Assembly: GCF_020733635.1 (NCBI RefSeq)
Contig: NZ_JAJFZL010000001.1
Span: 2,418,001-2,482,000 of the forward strand
Length of the DNA: 64,000 nucleotides
Reading direction: 5' to 3'
Origin: Nocardia spumae
GTDB lineage: Bacteria; Actinomycetota; Actinomycetes; Mycobacteriales; Mycobacteriaceae
Of this stretch, positions 5,856 through 37,200 are shown piece after piece. The translations under genes and the position numbers were made by a program. Under the pieces are notes generated by a model. It did no database searches and was not told where the DNA came from. It worked only from the letters and a program-made list of their open reading frames with translations. Position 1 is the first letter of the stretch; each line of letters starts with the position of its first letter.

Positions 5856-7208
5856 CTACCGTGGGTTAGGTAACCCTAATACTGGAGGTATCGCATCGTG
5901 GCTCGCACTCGACTGGCCTTCGAGGTCCGGCGCACGCAACGACTGACCGACCATCTGATCCGGGTGTATCTGGGAGGGCCCGGTTTCGAGGGCTTCCAGC
6001 CCAACGGATTCACCGACGCCTACGTCAAACTGCTGTTCCCTGGACCCGATGGGGACACCATGCGCACCTACACGGTGAGTTCCATCGACTCCGAGGCCCA
6101 GGAGATCTCGATCGATTTCGTCTACCACGGTGACGAGGGGGTCGCGGGGCCCTGGGCCGCCGCCGCCCGCGCGGGTGACACCATCGAACTGTTCGGTCCC
6201 GGTGGTGCGTACACGCCCGATCCCCGAGCCGATTGGCACTTGTTGGCGGGGGACGAGGCCGCACTGCCCGCGATCGCCGCGGCCTGTGCCGCGCTGCCGC
6301 CCGGGGCCGTCGGCCGCGTTCTCGTCGAAATCGCCGGGCCCGCGGACGAATTGGACTTCCCCCGCCCGGCCGGGGTCGAACTCGACTGGGTGTACCGCGG
6401 GGACCGGGGGCCCGGTGAGGCATTGGCCGCCGCTGTTCGCGCCGCGCCGTGGCGGGACGGCGGGGTGCAGGTGTTCATCCACGGCGAGGCCGACAAGGTG
6501 ATGCACGATCTGCGCCGGTACATCCGCACCGAACGCGGCGTGCCCGCGGCCTCGGCCTCGATCTCCGGGTATTGGCGTCGCGGCCGGACCGAGGAGGGCT
6601 TCCGGCAGTGGAAGCGGGATCTGTCCGAGCAGGAAGCCGCCATCTCCGGAGCGTCCTGAGGGCGACGCCGCCGGTGTCCCGGCCTGCGGCAGCACGGGTT
6701 TGAGCCGCACCGGGGCCCGTCGCAGCAGACCGAGGGGGTCCAGATAGTCCCGCCCCCGCCGCAGGCCCCAGTGCAGGCAGACTCCCGGGCAGCCCGGATG
6801 GCCCGGCTGCAATGTCCCCAGCGATGCCCCGCGCCCGAGCCGCTCGCCGACCGTCACGGCGGCCCGCACGGGTTCGTAGGTAGTTCGCAGGCCGCCCGGA
6901 TGATCGACCGAGACGACCGGTTTCCCGGCCACTGTCCCGGCGAAGACGACGATTCCCGCACCGGCGGCCAGCACGTCCTGACCGGCCGCGCCCGCCAGAT
7001 CGACACCGCGATGCCCCGGCAGCCAGGCCTGCTCGGGCTTGTCGAAGCCGCGCACGACCGAGGGCCGCGGACGCAGGGGCCAATCGAACTGGCCCGGTGG
7101 CGCGGCACGCCCCACCCCGGCGCCCCAGTTCGCGGCCGTAACCAGCACAGCCATCAGAAACGCCGGCCACCATCGCATGCGACCACCCTGGCCCGCGGCG
7201 GCGGACAT
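5856..7208 (-). CDS. M23 family metallopeptidase with an open antisense 3' extension
   Basis: The first 180 or so residues are a secreted M23 (LytM-like) peptidoglycan endopeptidase-type protein similar to mycobacterial Rv2891. A signal peptide lies near MRWWPAFLMAVLVTAANWG. Zn ligands occur in HRGVDLAG (His and Asp) and LHWGL (His). The glycine-rich barrel includes GAGIVVFAGTVAGKP. The start is ATG 7208; ATG 7178 is an alternative. The domain ends near 6700 at YLDPLGLLRR, but no in-frame stop occurs until 5856. The last 270 or so residues are therefore the antisense of the siderophore-interacting gene and are probably not functional. A frameshift or missing stop near 6660-6700 would explain this. 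Confidence 0.7.
   Translation of the reverse strand: MSAAAGQGGRMRWWPAFLMAVLVTAANWGAGVGRAAPPGQFDWPLRPRPSVVRGFDKPEQAWLPGHRGVDLAGAAGQDVLAAGAGIVVFAGTVAGKPVVSVDHPGGLRTTYEPVRAAVTVGERLGRGASLGTLQPGHPGCPGVCLHWGLRRGRDYLDPLGLLRRAPVRLKPVLPQAGTPAASPSGRSGDGGFLLGQIPLPLPEALLGPAATPIPGDRGRGRGHAAFGADVPAQIVHHLVGLAVDEHLHPAVPPRRGANSGGQCLTGPPVPAVHPVEFDPGRAGEVQFVRGPGDFDENAADGPGRQRGTGRGDRGQCGLVPRQQVPIGSGIGRVRTTGTEQFDGVTRAGGGGPGPRDPLVTVVDEIDRDLLGLGVDGTHRVGAHGVPIGSREQQFDVGVGESVGLEALETGPSQIHPDQMVGQSLRAPDLEGQSSASHDAIPPVLGLPNPR
5861..5884 (+). promoter_or_regulatory. IdeR/DtxR-like iron box upstream of the siderophore-interacting gene
   Basis: The segment GTGGGTTAGGTAACCCTAA (5861-5879) matches 14 of 19 positions of the DtxR/IdeR consensus TWAGGTWAGSCTWACCTWA. 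A second overlapping register at 5866-5884 also matches 14 of 19. The core GGGTTA-GG-TAACCC is a perfect inverted repeat. The site ends 14-19 bases before the SIP start codon, and a TATAAT hexamer lies at 5826-5831. This is the expected place for iron repression of a siderophore-reduction gene. Confidence 0.65.
5898..6659 (+). CDS. Siderophore-interacting protein (FAD-linked ferric-siderophore reductase family)
   Basis: This 253-residue cytoplasmic flavoprotein of the SIP/ViuB family reduces imported ferric siderophores to release iron. The FAD-binding barrel has the motif MRTYTVSSID (about residue 55) and DFVYHGDEGVAGPWAAAARAG. The C-terminal SIP domain has WHLLAGDEAALPAI, VFIHGEADKVMHDLRRYI and the terminal GYWRRGRTEEGFRQWK. 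The start has a GGAGG ribosome site and an IdeR-like box just upstream, so iron repression is likely. The whole gene lies antisense to the open 3' extension of the neighbouring M23 peptidase frame. Confidence 0.92.
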   Translation: MARTRLAFEVRRTQRLTDHLIRVYLGGPGFEGFQPNGFTDAYVKLLFPGPDGDTMRTYTVSSIDSEAQEISIDFVYHGDEGVAGPWAAAARAGDTIELFGPGGAYTPDPRADWHLLAGDEAALPAIAAACAALPPGAVGRVLVEIAGPADELDFPRPAGVELDWVYRGDRGPGEALAAAVRAAPWRDGGVQVFIHGEADKVMHDLRRYIRTERGVPAASASISGYWRRGRTEEGFRQWKRDLSEQEAAISGAS

Positions 7209-35348: not shown

Positions 35349-35711
35349 TCAGCCGGCGAACGCGTGCGCCACCGCGTAGCCGAGCAGGGCGGCGCCGAGT
35401 CCGGCCACCACGCTGATCACCACATTCATCGCCGCGTAGAACGTCACGCGCTGCTCGAGCAGCCGCATCGTCTCGTACCCGAACGTACTGTAGGTGGTCA
35501 GCGCCCCGCAGAACCCGGTGCCGAGCAAGGCCAGGACCGGCGTGCCGGCCGCGGCGCCGGTGAGCGCCCCCAGGATGAGGCAGCCGGCGATATTGACCGT
35601 CAGCGTCCCCCACGGGAACAGGCTGTCGTGCCGCGCCTGAACGAAGCGATCGGTCAGGTAGCGGGCCGGGGCGCCGATCATCGCGCCGAGGAGAACCAAC
35701 GCGATGATCAT
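35349..35711 (-). CDS. crcB: CrcB/Fluc fluoride exporter subunit 1
   Basis: Fluc channels export fluoride as dual-topology dimers or as paired heterodimers. The 120-residue, four-helix protein has GAPARYLTDR, PWGTLTVNIAGCLILGAL (with the conserved Asn) and GTGFCGALTTYSTFGYE (with the Phe-box). It is the downstream gene of a crcB pair. ATG 35711 overlaps the stop of the preceding mini-ORF (ATGA) and has a GGAGG ribosome site within the 71-bp repeat. Confidence 0.95.
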   Translation of the reverse strand: MIIALVLLGAMIGAPARYLTDRFVQARHDSLFPWGTLTVNIAGCLILGALTGAAAGTPVLALLGTGFCGALTTYSTFGYETMRLLEQRVTFYAAMNVVISVVAGLGAALLGYAVAHAFAG

Positions 35712-35782
35712 CGTGCCTCCTGCGATATGCGGGGCACCTGCGCCCGGTCGGCCCGGTGAGTGGGCTGCGCAGTGTGACTCAT
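35708..35782 (-). CDS. 24-residue mini-ORF, repeat copy 2
   Basis: This short frame is encoded within the second 71-bp repeat unit. It starts at ATG 35782, with an AGGAGG ribosome site a few bases upstream. It overlaps the stop of the first mini-ORF by four bases, and its own stop overlaps the crcB start by four bases. The peptide is Arg/His/Gln-rich and ends RISQEAR. It differs from the first copy at one residue (Ile for Lys). Whether it is made is unknown; it could simply keep ribosomes moving into crcB. Confidence 0.4.
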   Translation of the reverse strand: MSHTAQPTHRADRAQVPRISQEAR

Positions 35783-35865
35783 CGTGCCTCCTGCGATTTG
35801 CGGGGCACCTGCGCCCGGTCGGCCCGGTGAGTGGGCTGCGCAGTGTGACTCATCGTGCCTCCTGC
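35709..35865. repeat. 71-bp tandem repeat between the two crcB genes
   Basis: Two full 71-bp units (35709-35779 and 35780-35850) differ at a single base (GATATGC against GATTTGC). They are followed by a 15-base partial third unit, CATCGTGCCTCCTGC (35851-35865). Each unit carries, on the minus strand, a ribosome site, an ATGA stop/start overlap and the body of a 24-codon frame. The near identity implies a recent duplication. Confidence 0.92.
35779..35853 (-). CDS. 24-residue mini-ORF, repeat copy 1
   Basis: This short frame begins at ATG 35853, overlapping the stop of the upstream crcB gene (ATGA), with an AGGAGG ribosome site. It ends in a TGA overlapping the next mini-ORF. It starts MSHTAQPTHR and ends RKSQEAR, like the C-terminus of the upstream CrcB (RIRQEAR). 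No known domain can be recognised at this length. Confidence 0.4.
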   Translation of the reverse strand: MSHTAQPTHRADRAQVPRKSQEAR

Positions 35866-36368
35866 CGAATCCGCTTGCCGAGAAATACCATTCGCGCCAG
35901 GGTGACCCCGGCGAGCACCGCGAGCAGCGCGCACACCAGGGTGGCACCCAGATAGGCGAACGCGAGCCAGGCCGAACCCGGTTGCAGCAGATTGCGGATC
36001 TCGACGGCGTAGGTGGAGAAGGTGGTGAATCCGCCGAGAAAGCCCACCCCCACGAACGGCCGCACCAGCCGATGGGCGGGCCACACCTCGGTGATCAGCA
36101 CCATCAGCACGCCGATCGCCAGGCAGCCGGCGACGTTCTCGGTGAAGGTGCCCCACGGGAACTGGCCGGGATGGGTCGGCAGCAGCCGCGACAGACCGTA
36201 GCGGGACAGACCGCCGAGTCCGCCGCCGATCGCGATCACCGCCAGCACCGCGCCGTGTTCGCGCATCAGCTCCCGCCGTTGAGTGGGGACGCGCAGGTCG
36301 ACATCGGGATCGATCGACTCGGCGGCGGAGTCGCCGGGCCGGTCCGGGAAACGACGCACTTCGGTCAA
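35850..36368 (-). CDS. crcB: CrcB/Fluc fluoride exporter subunit 2
   Basis: This 172-residue Fluc-family protein has a hydrophilic N-terminal extension of about 45 residues before four membrane helices. The core has GGLGGLSRYGLSRLL, PWGTFTENVAGCLAIGVL (conserved Asn) and GVGFLGGFTTFSTYAVE. I chose TTG 36368 because an AGGAG site (36376-36380) lies seven bases upstream and the leader RNA elements end before it. An in-frame GTG at 36401 lies inside the leader hairpin, and ATG 36266 would remove the extension. It probably pairs with the downstream CrcB as a heterodimer. Confidence 0.88.
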   Translation of the reverse strand: MTEVRRFPDRPGDSAAESIDPDVDLRVPTQRRELMREHGAVLAVIAIGGGLGGLSRYGLSRLLPTHPGQFPWGTFTENVAGCLAIGVLMVLITEVWPAHRLVRPFVGVGFLGGFTTFSTYAVEIRNLLQPGSAWLAFAYLGATLVCALLAVLAGVTLARMVFLGKRIRQEAR

Positions 36369-36378
36369 CGACAGACTC

Positions 36379-36496
36379 CTACTCGAACGACGGGACAGCA
36401 CAGACCTCGAGTAGGGACTGTTGGCGATCGTCCGATCGCGGTTGTTCCGGCGCCTGCACCGGAGTGGCGAGCCCCACCGCCACGTCGGTCAGAATA
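36379..36496 (-). promoter_or_regulatory. Candidate fluoride riboswitch and expression platform upstream of the crcB pair
   Basis: Reading the minus strand, a -10-like TATTCT (36496-36491) is followed at once by a P1-like stem GTGGCG / CGCCAC (36483-36478 and 36469-36464) with the loop GTGGGGCT. That loop can form a 6-bp pseudoknot with AGTCCC (36419-36414), followed by TAC, as in crcB-motif RNAs. Two more hairpins lie between them (TCCGG/CCGGA; GCGATC/GATCGC). The segment CTACTCGA (36414-36407) pairs perfectly with TCGAGTAG (36386-36379), which abuts the AGGAG ribosome site. The conserved GAUG of typical fluoride riboswitches is not matched exactly. Confidence 0.5.
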
Positions 36497-36552
36497 GCGG
36501 GTCGCGGCACCCGCGTATCCGGACTGTGCCCGGCTTCACCGATCGGCCCGCC

Positions 36553-37200
36553 TCACGCCCGCGGCACGGGCTCCCGCGCGGTGTCGGCGACCAGCGGCGC
36601 GAGCGCCGACGAGCGCAGCCGTGCCACCAGGTTGGTGACCGGGCGCGCCAGCAGCAGGCTGACCGCGGCGGCGACCGGGACGGCGAGGATCGCCGAGGCC
36701 ACCACATCGTGCGGATAGTGGCCGCCGACGTAGACCCGGCTGAACGCCAGGACGACCGCGAAGACCGCCGTGACCCAGCCCAGGCGCCGATTCAGCAGAT
36801 AGAGCGCGGCGACGGTGGCCGCCGCCGTCGTGGTGTGACCGCTGGGGAACGAATAGTCGCTCGGCACCGGACAGGTCTCGAGGATGTAGGCGGACGGGAC
36901 GCCCCGGCACGGCCGCGGCTCGGCGACCAGTACTTTCACCACCTCAGCGACCAGATACGCGACCACTACGCTCACCGGAGCCAGCAACGCCAGTGCCATC
37001 GACCGGTCGTCGCGGCGGCGTGCCAGCCACCAGCCGATCACCATCAGCACGGCGAAGATTCCCAGTCCCGCATCGGTCCACCACAGCATCGCGTCGTTGA
37101 GCCAGCGGGTGTGGTCGGCGAAATCGGTGATGGTGGTGAACAACGGGCGATCGAATCCGGGGCCGCCGGATGCCATCGGGGCCGGGGAGGGGGTCGTCAA
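36553..37200 (-). CDS. PAP2-family phosphatase
   Basis: This 215-residue membrane protein with about five or six helices has the three PAP2 motifs: KVLVAEPRP (KxxxxxxRP), SFPSGHTTT (PSGH) and SRVYVGGHYPHDV (SRxxxxxHxxxD). Family members dephosphorylate lipid phosphates such as undecaprenyl/decaprenyl diphosphate or phosphatidic acid; the substrate is not determinable here. The start is TTG 37200, with ATG 37176 as an alternative. It lies upstream of the crcB leader in the same orientation and is divergent from the LysR-like gene. Confidence 0.87.
   Translation of the reverse strand: MTTPSPAPMASGGPGFDRPLFTTITDFADHTRWLNDAMLWWTDAGLGIFAVLMVIGWWLARRRDDRSMALALLAPVSVVVAYLVAEVVKVLVAEPRPCRGVPSAYILETCPVPSDYSFPSGHTTTAAATVAALYLLNRRLGWVTAVFAVVLAFSRVYVGGHYPHDVVASAILAVPVAAAVSLLLARPVTNLVARLRSSALAPLVADTAREPVPRA

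Follow-up and report, generated by a model that had tools for sequence, protein, structure and literature searches.

The leader RNA of the crcB gene pair in Nocardia spumae is very probably a variant fluoride riboswitch, likely to bind fluoride and predicted to turn on translation of the exporters. Sequence comparison places the variant best as a subtype, seen in Actinomycetota, of the fluoride riboswitch class. What sets it apart from canonical fluoride aptamers is a compensated predicted tertiary pair, G6-C38 for A6-U38, accompanied by C41 for U41. Leaders of this type occur in many actinobacteria, with scores under the threshold that the standard RNA-family library applies. Among the titles and abstract openings listed from the literature on fluoride riboswitches, on actinobacteria and on variants, none describes a G6-C38 subtype, though an earlier report may exist.

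Anatomy of the crcB leader

The leader occupies minus-strand positions 36483-36366, ahead of the crcB pair, in the analysed window (the whole stretch of 64,000 nucleotides). Read along the minus strand from 36496 to 36366, the order is TATTCT, GUGGCG-GUGGGGCU-CGCCAC, a UCCGG...CCGGA hairpin, ACAACC, GCGAUC...GAUCGC, CAAC, AGUCCC, UAC, UCGAGG..., UCGAGUAG, GAG, 7 bases and UUG. The features are:

36491..36496, minus strand: -10-like TATTCT, with transcription predicted to begin near 36484, at the base of P1
36483-36478/36469-36464, minus strand: stem P1, GUGGCG/CGCCAC, closing the 8-nt loop
36477-36470, minus strand: P1 loop GUGGGGCU, 8 nt, containing GGGGCU
36477, minus strand: G at aptamer position 6, where canonical fluoride aptamers have A; C38 is its predicted partner
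36470..36475, minus strand: pseudoknot 5' strand GGGGCU, pairing with 36414-36419 over 6 bp
36446..36463, minus strand: extra hairpin P1a, UCCGG/CCGGA, between P1 and junction, in Nocardia-type members
36440..36445, minus strand: junction ACAACC, conserved in alignment A2
36444-36441, minus strand: CAAC within the junction, pairing, in the minimum-energy fold, with a GUUG that spans the start codon
36424..36439, minus strand: stem P2, GCGAUC/GAUCGC, from sequence and covariation
36420..36423, minus strand: CAAC, positions 38-41 (C38, A40, C41); canonical counterpart UGAU
36414..36419, minus strand: pseudoknot 3' strand AGUCCC, followed by UAC
36411..36413, minus strand: UAC, positions U48, A49 and C50; U48 is the linchpin partner of A40, and UAC is also part of the platform stem
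36407..36414, minus strand: platform stem 5' strand CUACUCGA, overlapping aptamer C47 and U48-C50
36379..36386, minus strand: platform stem 3' strand UCGAGUAG, which leads into AGGAG
36376..36380, minus strand: ribosome-binding site AGGAG, from sequence
35850..36368, minus strand: crcB1, TTG start at 36368-36366, 172 aa, PF02537 at 97.6 bits
35349..35711, minus strand: crcB2, 120 aa, PF02537 at 95.9 bits

The P1 stem, the pseudoknot GGGGCU/AGUCCC followed by UAC, the TATTCT and the perfect 8-bp stem beside the AGGAG of a TTG start, all named in the original prediction, are present on the minus strand. Its placement of the leader before a crcB pair holds as well: the TTG opens a CrcB frame (PF02537) and a second one lies behind. 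The crcB1 product matches the solved fluoride channel 5a40 (E 1.2e-11) and that of crcB2 the channels 6b24 (E 1.9e-9) and 5a43 (E 2.8e-9), so that both are predicted by homology to be fluoride-channel subunits. A PAP2 phosphatase gene on the minus strand ends upstream of the leader at 36553. A tandem repeat (35708-35865; 71-bp unit, 2.2 copies, 98% matches) lies between the two crcB genes and covers the end of crcB1 and the ribosome-site and start region of crcB2.

Transcription likely starts near 36484, at the base of P1, as judged from the placement of the -10 hexamer TANNNT across variants. The hexamer stands 11-22 nt before the 4-bp P1 core in 79 of the 176 variants with enough upstream sequence, against 9.4 expected from shuffling, and in 23/26 of the Nocardia set. 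A sigma-70-type scan at the leader found no -35/-10 pair and no -35 element.

The leader has the general design of the RF01734 fluoride aptamer: P1 with an 8-nt loop, P2, a conserved junction, an H-type pseudoknot of 6 bp from the P1 loop to the 3' segment, and the A40 and U48 linchpin (A in 107 and U in 107 of the 109 rows of alignment A4). It differs from that family in G6-C38 instead of A6-U38, where complementarity is retained with changed identities, in C41 instead of U41, in a mostly A39 and in a near-constant G-U pair of the pseudoknot. It is not filed in the curated family because it fails both the score and A6/U38, while the other tested marks of the family are present.

At the gathering threshold no Rfam family matched anywhere in the 64-kb window. 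RF01734 aligns with the entire element (36405-36490), scoring 16.1 bits (E 0.16 for a search of 1201 bases), below its cut-off of 34 bits. Scoring with this model had been proposed as a check, and the score lies within the chance range of the genome. Another site of the source genome (L001), the best elsewhere and treated as chance, reaches 17.5 bits, and the Rfam score alone is thus no evidence. None of 20 variant elements scored with RF01734 reached 34 bits (8/20 were listed, at 18.5-23.5 bits), and G6-C38 elements, where listed by RF01734, range from 16.1 to 32.5 bits, all below it. The best of them (L133) and a neighbour in score (L134), at 32.5 and 32.2 bits, stand just under the cut-off, so that canonical and variant types grade into each other. 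A descriptor for P1, the 6-bp pseudoknot, P2 and A40/U48, written with knowledge of the N. spumae element, has the leader as its one match in the window and 4 matches in 3.84 Mb of Markov-2 random DNA. The single-sequence fold energy of the leader is ordinary (z -1.32) and gives no support.

Compensatory change was to be looked for in the leaders of relatives, and P1, P2, the pseudoknot and the platform stem all covary, an outcome that favours the original prediction. Alignment A2 holds 28 Nocardia-type sequences with 34 invariant columns; its covariation score is 0.242 against 0.147 when shuffled (0/500 as high) and at most 0.093 in slid versions. Alignment A4 has 109 rows, 108 of them distinct, including two plain chance rows (L136:2229, L095:1515) and two canonical ones (L152:16925, L156:6334); it scores 0.248 against 0.123 shuffled (0/500 as high) and at most 0.040 slid. 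The rows are related, so these figures count related sequences and not independent events. Pair 2 of P1 is UA in 16 and CG in 12 of the A2 sequences, and 4/6 P1 pairs change on both sides among the 108 distinct rows of A4. P2 shows the exchanges GC/AU, UA/CG and CG/UG/UA in A2, and all 6/6 of its pairs change on both sides somewhere in A4. Hairpin P1a is paired in 92.8% of cells in A2, 3/5 of its pairs changing on both sides. The pseudoknot is invariant in the 28 sequences of A2, which are therefore uninformative on its covariation. In A4 it is paired in 99.7% of cells; its last pair is UA in 56, CG in 28 and UG in 22 of 108 rows, and its near-constant G-U pair is GU in 100 and AU in 3.

The tertiary pair 6-38

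In the solved fluoride aptamer A6-U38 is a reversed Watson-Crick pair and A40-U48 a reversed Hoogsteen pair (passages of PMC11586693 and PMC10687018), and the three Mg2+ ions that surround fluoride are coordinated by phosphates of the backbone and by water (a passage of PMC8752731). G6-C38 would be a reversed Watson-Crick pair replacing A6-U38, and the pocket would be preserved, as it is backbone phosphates that hold the Mg2+ ions. That G-C may replace A-U in this geometry is suggested by tRNA, whose Levitt pair 15-48 is a reversed Watson-Crick tertiary pair exchanging G-C for A-U; the likeness is an analogy between non-homologous RNAs.

The pair was read with a descriptor that demands P1, U7, G8, the pseudoknot, P2, A40 and U48 and leaves positions 6, 38, 39 and 41 free; since A40 and U48 are demanded, it is no test of those two positions. 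Among 117 distinct elements (loci L001-L218) the 6-38 pair is G-C in 105, A-U in 10, G-U in 1 and U-U in 1, a ratio of 105:10 that is biased because R1, the aptamer model made from 28 relatives, was trained on G6-C38 only. G6-C38 goes with C41 in 104/105 elements and A6-U38 with U41 in 9/10. RF01734, which was not trained on the variant, fetched 30 loci, of which 15 pass the descriptor: 6 A-U, 8 G-C, 1 G-U and no A-C. Of the other 15, which fail the descriptor, all five that exceed the cut-off read A6-U38, as do L137 and L138; one (L149) has G6-C38 with A7, and the rest are partial or unclear. All 11/11 fetched loci over the RF01734 cut-off are A6-U38. In A4 (108 rows) the pair is GC in 101, AU in 3, GU in 1, other in 1 and a gap in 2; its columns 117-120, corresponding to positions 38-41, hold C in 103, A/G in 96/12, A in 107 and C in 103 of 109 rows. 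An intermediate with A6-U38, C41 and the variant pseudoknot occurs at L156:3238.

The original prediction had taken the leader for a possible variant class on two grounds, a missing GAUG and an extra hairpin. The class stands, and the missing GAUG turns out to be one half of the compensated change from A6-U38 to G6-C38. The hairpin is not the mark, because accepted Rfam members also have inserts between P1 and the junction, and the class-wide variants inspected are mostly shorter and lack it.

Position 7 is U in 103 and A in 5 of the 109 rows of A4. An A7 sub-group, with GGAGGG for GGUGGG, is seen at L153:558-612, L159:1104-1157, L158:4274-4328, L160:4222-4277 and L321:1-50.

Distribution and gene context

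The leader DNA matches 51/148 genomes of the genus, the source genome counted in; all 30/30 loci fetched from these matches carry the aptamer core and yield 28 distinct aptamers after identical ones are dropped. A search of plasmids with the leader DNA gave no match. R1 finds matches in 67/148 genomes of the genus at E <= 1e-3, or 63/148 once four chance-only genomes are rejected; in 24/251 genomes of the family at E <= 0.01, of which 5 are chance on inspection; in 60/394 of the class at E <= 0.01, or 58/394 without the chance matches in G622 and G731; and in 7/246 of the phylum, five of them (all but G859 and G898) inspected. RF01734 exceeds its own cut-off in 11/394 class genomes. No accepted match is present in 85/148 genomes of the genus, yet 147/148 have a CrcB gene. 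When the class was sampled through CrcB alone, 3 of the 30 best-scoring loci carried the motif, all with G6-C38.

A pattern scan gave at least 120 stretches; of the 80 listed, 47 held a new element passing the descriptor, all with titles that read as Actinomycetota. These counts were left out of the 6-38 argument because the pattern itself demands G6 and C38.

Weak R1 matches with neither an aptamer core nor a sought gene downstream were rejected in the genus (G145 at two sites, G031, G130, G030, G141:1758678), in the family (G031, G144, G196, G318, G374, the second G364 site) and in the class (G622 at two sites, G731). Pattern matches in Pseudomonas, Ktedonobacteraceae, Faecalibacterium, Acidobacteria, Gammaproteobacteria, Sphingobacteriales and Polyangiaceae, and in 4/4 matching viral contigs, fail the descriptor, have no P1 in place and were taken as chance.

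The variant shares with RF01734 its position before crcB, enolase and MutS-like genes. The first recognised gene after 176 distinct G6-C38 elements, a set that includes pattern-scan records, is crcB in 157, enolase in 6, a MutS-like gene in 1, a metallophosphoesterase gene in 1 and none of nine queries in 11; most of the elements thus stand before fluoride exporters or fluoride-sensitive enzymes. Pfam confirms as targets enolase (three loci), MutS domain V, glutamine synthetase, Nudix and a calcineurin-like phosphoesterase (L158); a protein at L160 related to this phosphoesterase has no Pfam match. Of the 58 class genomes, 51 have crcB downstream (49 by tblastn; G387 and G399 by open frame) and one enolase (G155); G264, G294, G388 and G527 lack the sought genes within 1.5 kb, and G569 and G659 reach the contig end. 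In G264 and G294 the core is present with no clear P2. The intermediate L156:3238 stands before an inorganic pyrophosphatase gene. Enolase and pyrophosphatase are among the genes given for fluoride riboswitches in a passage of PMC11139923, and mutS among the crcB-motif genes in one of PMC2864571.

Canonical elements, counted as such when over the RF01734 cut-off or A6-U38 by the descriptor, occur together with the G6-C38 variant in five loci (L152, L153, L154, L276 and L325).

Three variants lie within 4 kb at L160:3483-7259 (genome G132, same genus), before Nudix, metallophosphoesterase-like and glutamine synthetase genes; this is likely a fluoride-response island, set apart from the crcB locus that the genome also has (L010). 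Core-like elements with an unclear P2 precede an MFS transporter and a PPE-like protein in L086 and L087 (one genus of the family), with no crcB in the 1.5 kb downstream. Canonical RF01734 elements over the cut-off lie at L155:3381-3441 and 6744-6805, before genes for a CrcB-like and a PPE-like protein.

The same fold might serve a ligand other than free fluoride. The G6-C38/C41 aptamer would then sense a different anion, Mg2+ itself or a metal-fluoride complex, and crcB would be one of its outputs. Pocket-adjacent changes in other riboswitch families accompany an altered ligand, and here positions 6, 38 and 41, at or beside the pocket, differ together from the canonical state; two types in one island need not be redundant either. 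Against this, the genes are those that go with canonical fluoride aptamers (crcB, enolase and a MutS-like gene, besides the pyrophosphatase gene behind one A6-U38-C41 intermediate), the Mg2+ ions are held by phosphates and the changed pair is still complementary. This alternative is improbable, and fluoride is the preferred ligand.

The ribosome-site stem and its meaning

The 5' strand CUACUCGA of the platform stem starts at the last pseudoknot base, includes U48 and is perfectly complementary to UCGAGUAG by the AGGAG. The partner strands change together across variants, as in CUACUUGC/GCGAGUAG, CUACUUGUG/CGCAGGUAG, CUGCCAG/CUGGUAG and CUGUCU/AGAUAG. A recognisable ribosome site and start codon follow 165/177 variant elements, collapsed to 129, in which the contiguous stem averages 6.39 bp against 4.93 bp with swapped partners (0/200 as high, top swap 5.26). 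Among the 165, the stem measures 3 bp in 9, 4 in 26, 5 in 14, 6 in 17, 7 in 15, 8 in 55, 9 in 23 and 10 in 6; in the 49/165 with an unbroken stem of at most 5 bp, several of the fours are a longer stem with one C-A mismatch. Pairing of the aptamer 3' segment with the ribosome site, the mark of a translational platform, is thus conserved by covariation. In the minimum-energy fold, computed for the source leader only, the platform stem is present, 4/5 AGGAG bases pair with U48, C47, C46 and C45, the predicted helix continues through the pseudoknot strand as far as positions 40-43, and the junction is paired to the start codon.

Segment C45-C50 would be wanted by two competing structures, the aptamer and the ribosome-site stem. 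Fluoride and Mg2+ would keep it within the aptamer. When fluoride is absent, its pairing with UCGAGUAGGAG would block the ribosome site, CUACUCGA then pairing with UCGAGUAG and hiding the AGGAG. The whole would act as a translational on-switch, in which a rise in fluoride frees the ribosome site and the exporters are made. The two structures, their overlap and their conservation are established on paper; fluoride as the ligand, the direction of switching and the geometry of G6-C38 are inferred.

A fluoride riboswitch in this position may instead act mainly on transcription, by way of an early terminator or of Rho, whose sites may be exposed in leaders that are not translated. A passage of PMC8752731 terms fluoride riboswitches transcriptional. 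The Bacillus cereus crcB switch, as described in parts of PMC8752731 and PMC10687018, resembles the N. spumae leader in the A40-U48 linchpin and in a pseudoknot bordering the expression platform, but controls an intrinsic terminator, whereas the N. spumae alternative stem enters the ribosome site. Against action on transcription stand the terminator scan, which found no terminator-like site in 36300-36600, the covarying stem that adjoins the ribosome site and is shorter with swapped partners, and the predicted pairing of the AGGAG; this course is unlikely, somewhat more so than another ligand.

Temperature control might need no more than a hairpin of 8 bp at the ribosome site, and a plain hairpin of this kind, be it a thermometer, a small-RNA target or a protein site, with a chance likeness to the crcB motif, would agree with an RF01734 score inside the genome's chance range. 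It would leave aside an aptamer half that is highly conserved and covaries by itself, and canonical aptamers that precede the same kinds of genes and adjoin the variant, and it is very unlikely. A decayed canonical aptamer without function, which the departures from the Rfam consensus at strongly conserved positions might suggest, is hardly credible given the 34 invariant columns among the 28 Nocardia-type sequences and the compensatory change in helices and tertiary pair.

The variant fluoride riboswitch preferred here may, as a tentative proposal that is rather less than even, be a second Actinomycetota fluoride aptamer (G6-C38, C41) with its own affinity or switching rate, working alongside the canonical one in shared islands. 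Exporters and fluoride-sensitive Mg2+ enzymes would then be switched at different fluoride levels, mostly at the ribosome. Streptomyces cattleya uses fluoride riboswitches, as stated in a passage of PMC11139923 that cites another paper; part of the same 2024 review puts only ~15% of Fluc (CrcB) exporters under riboswitch control. This figure may be low for lack of the present subtype. Class-wide RNA fluoride sensing looks sparse by Rfam, with 11/394 genomes against 58/394 with the variant model. The paired exchange of two nucleotides beside the fluoride pocket would amount to a natural experiment on a structure in which three Mg2+ ions surround a single anion. Being compact and translational, the switch could also find use in actinomycetes as a part for sensing fluoride.
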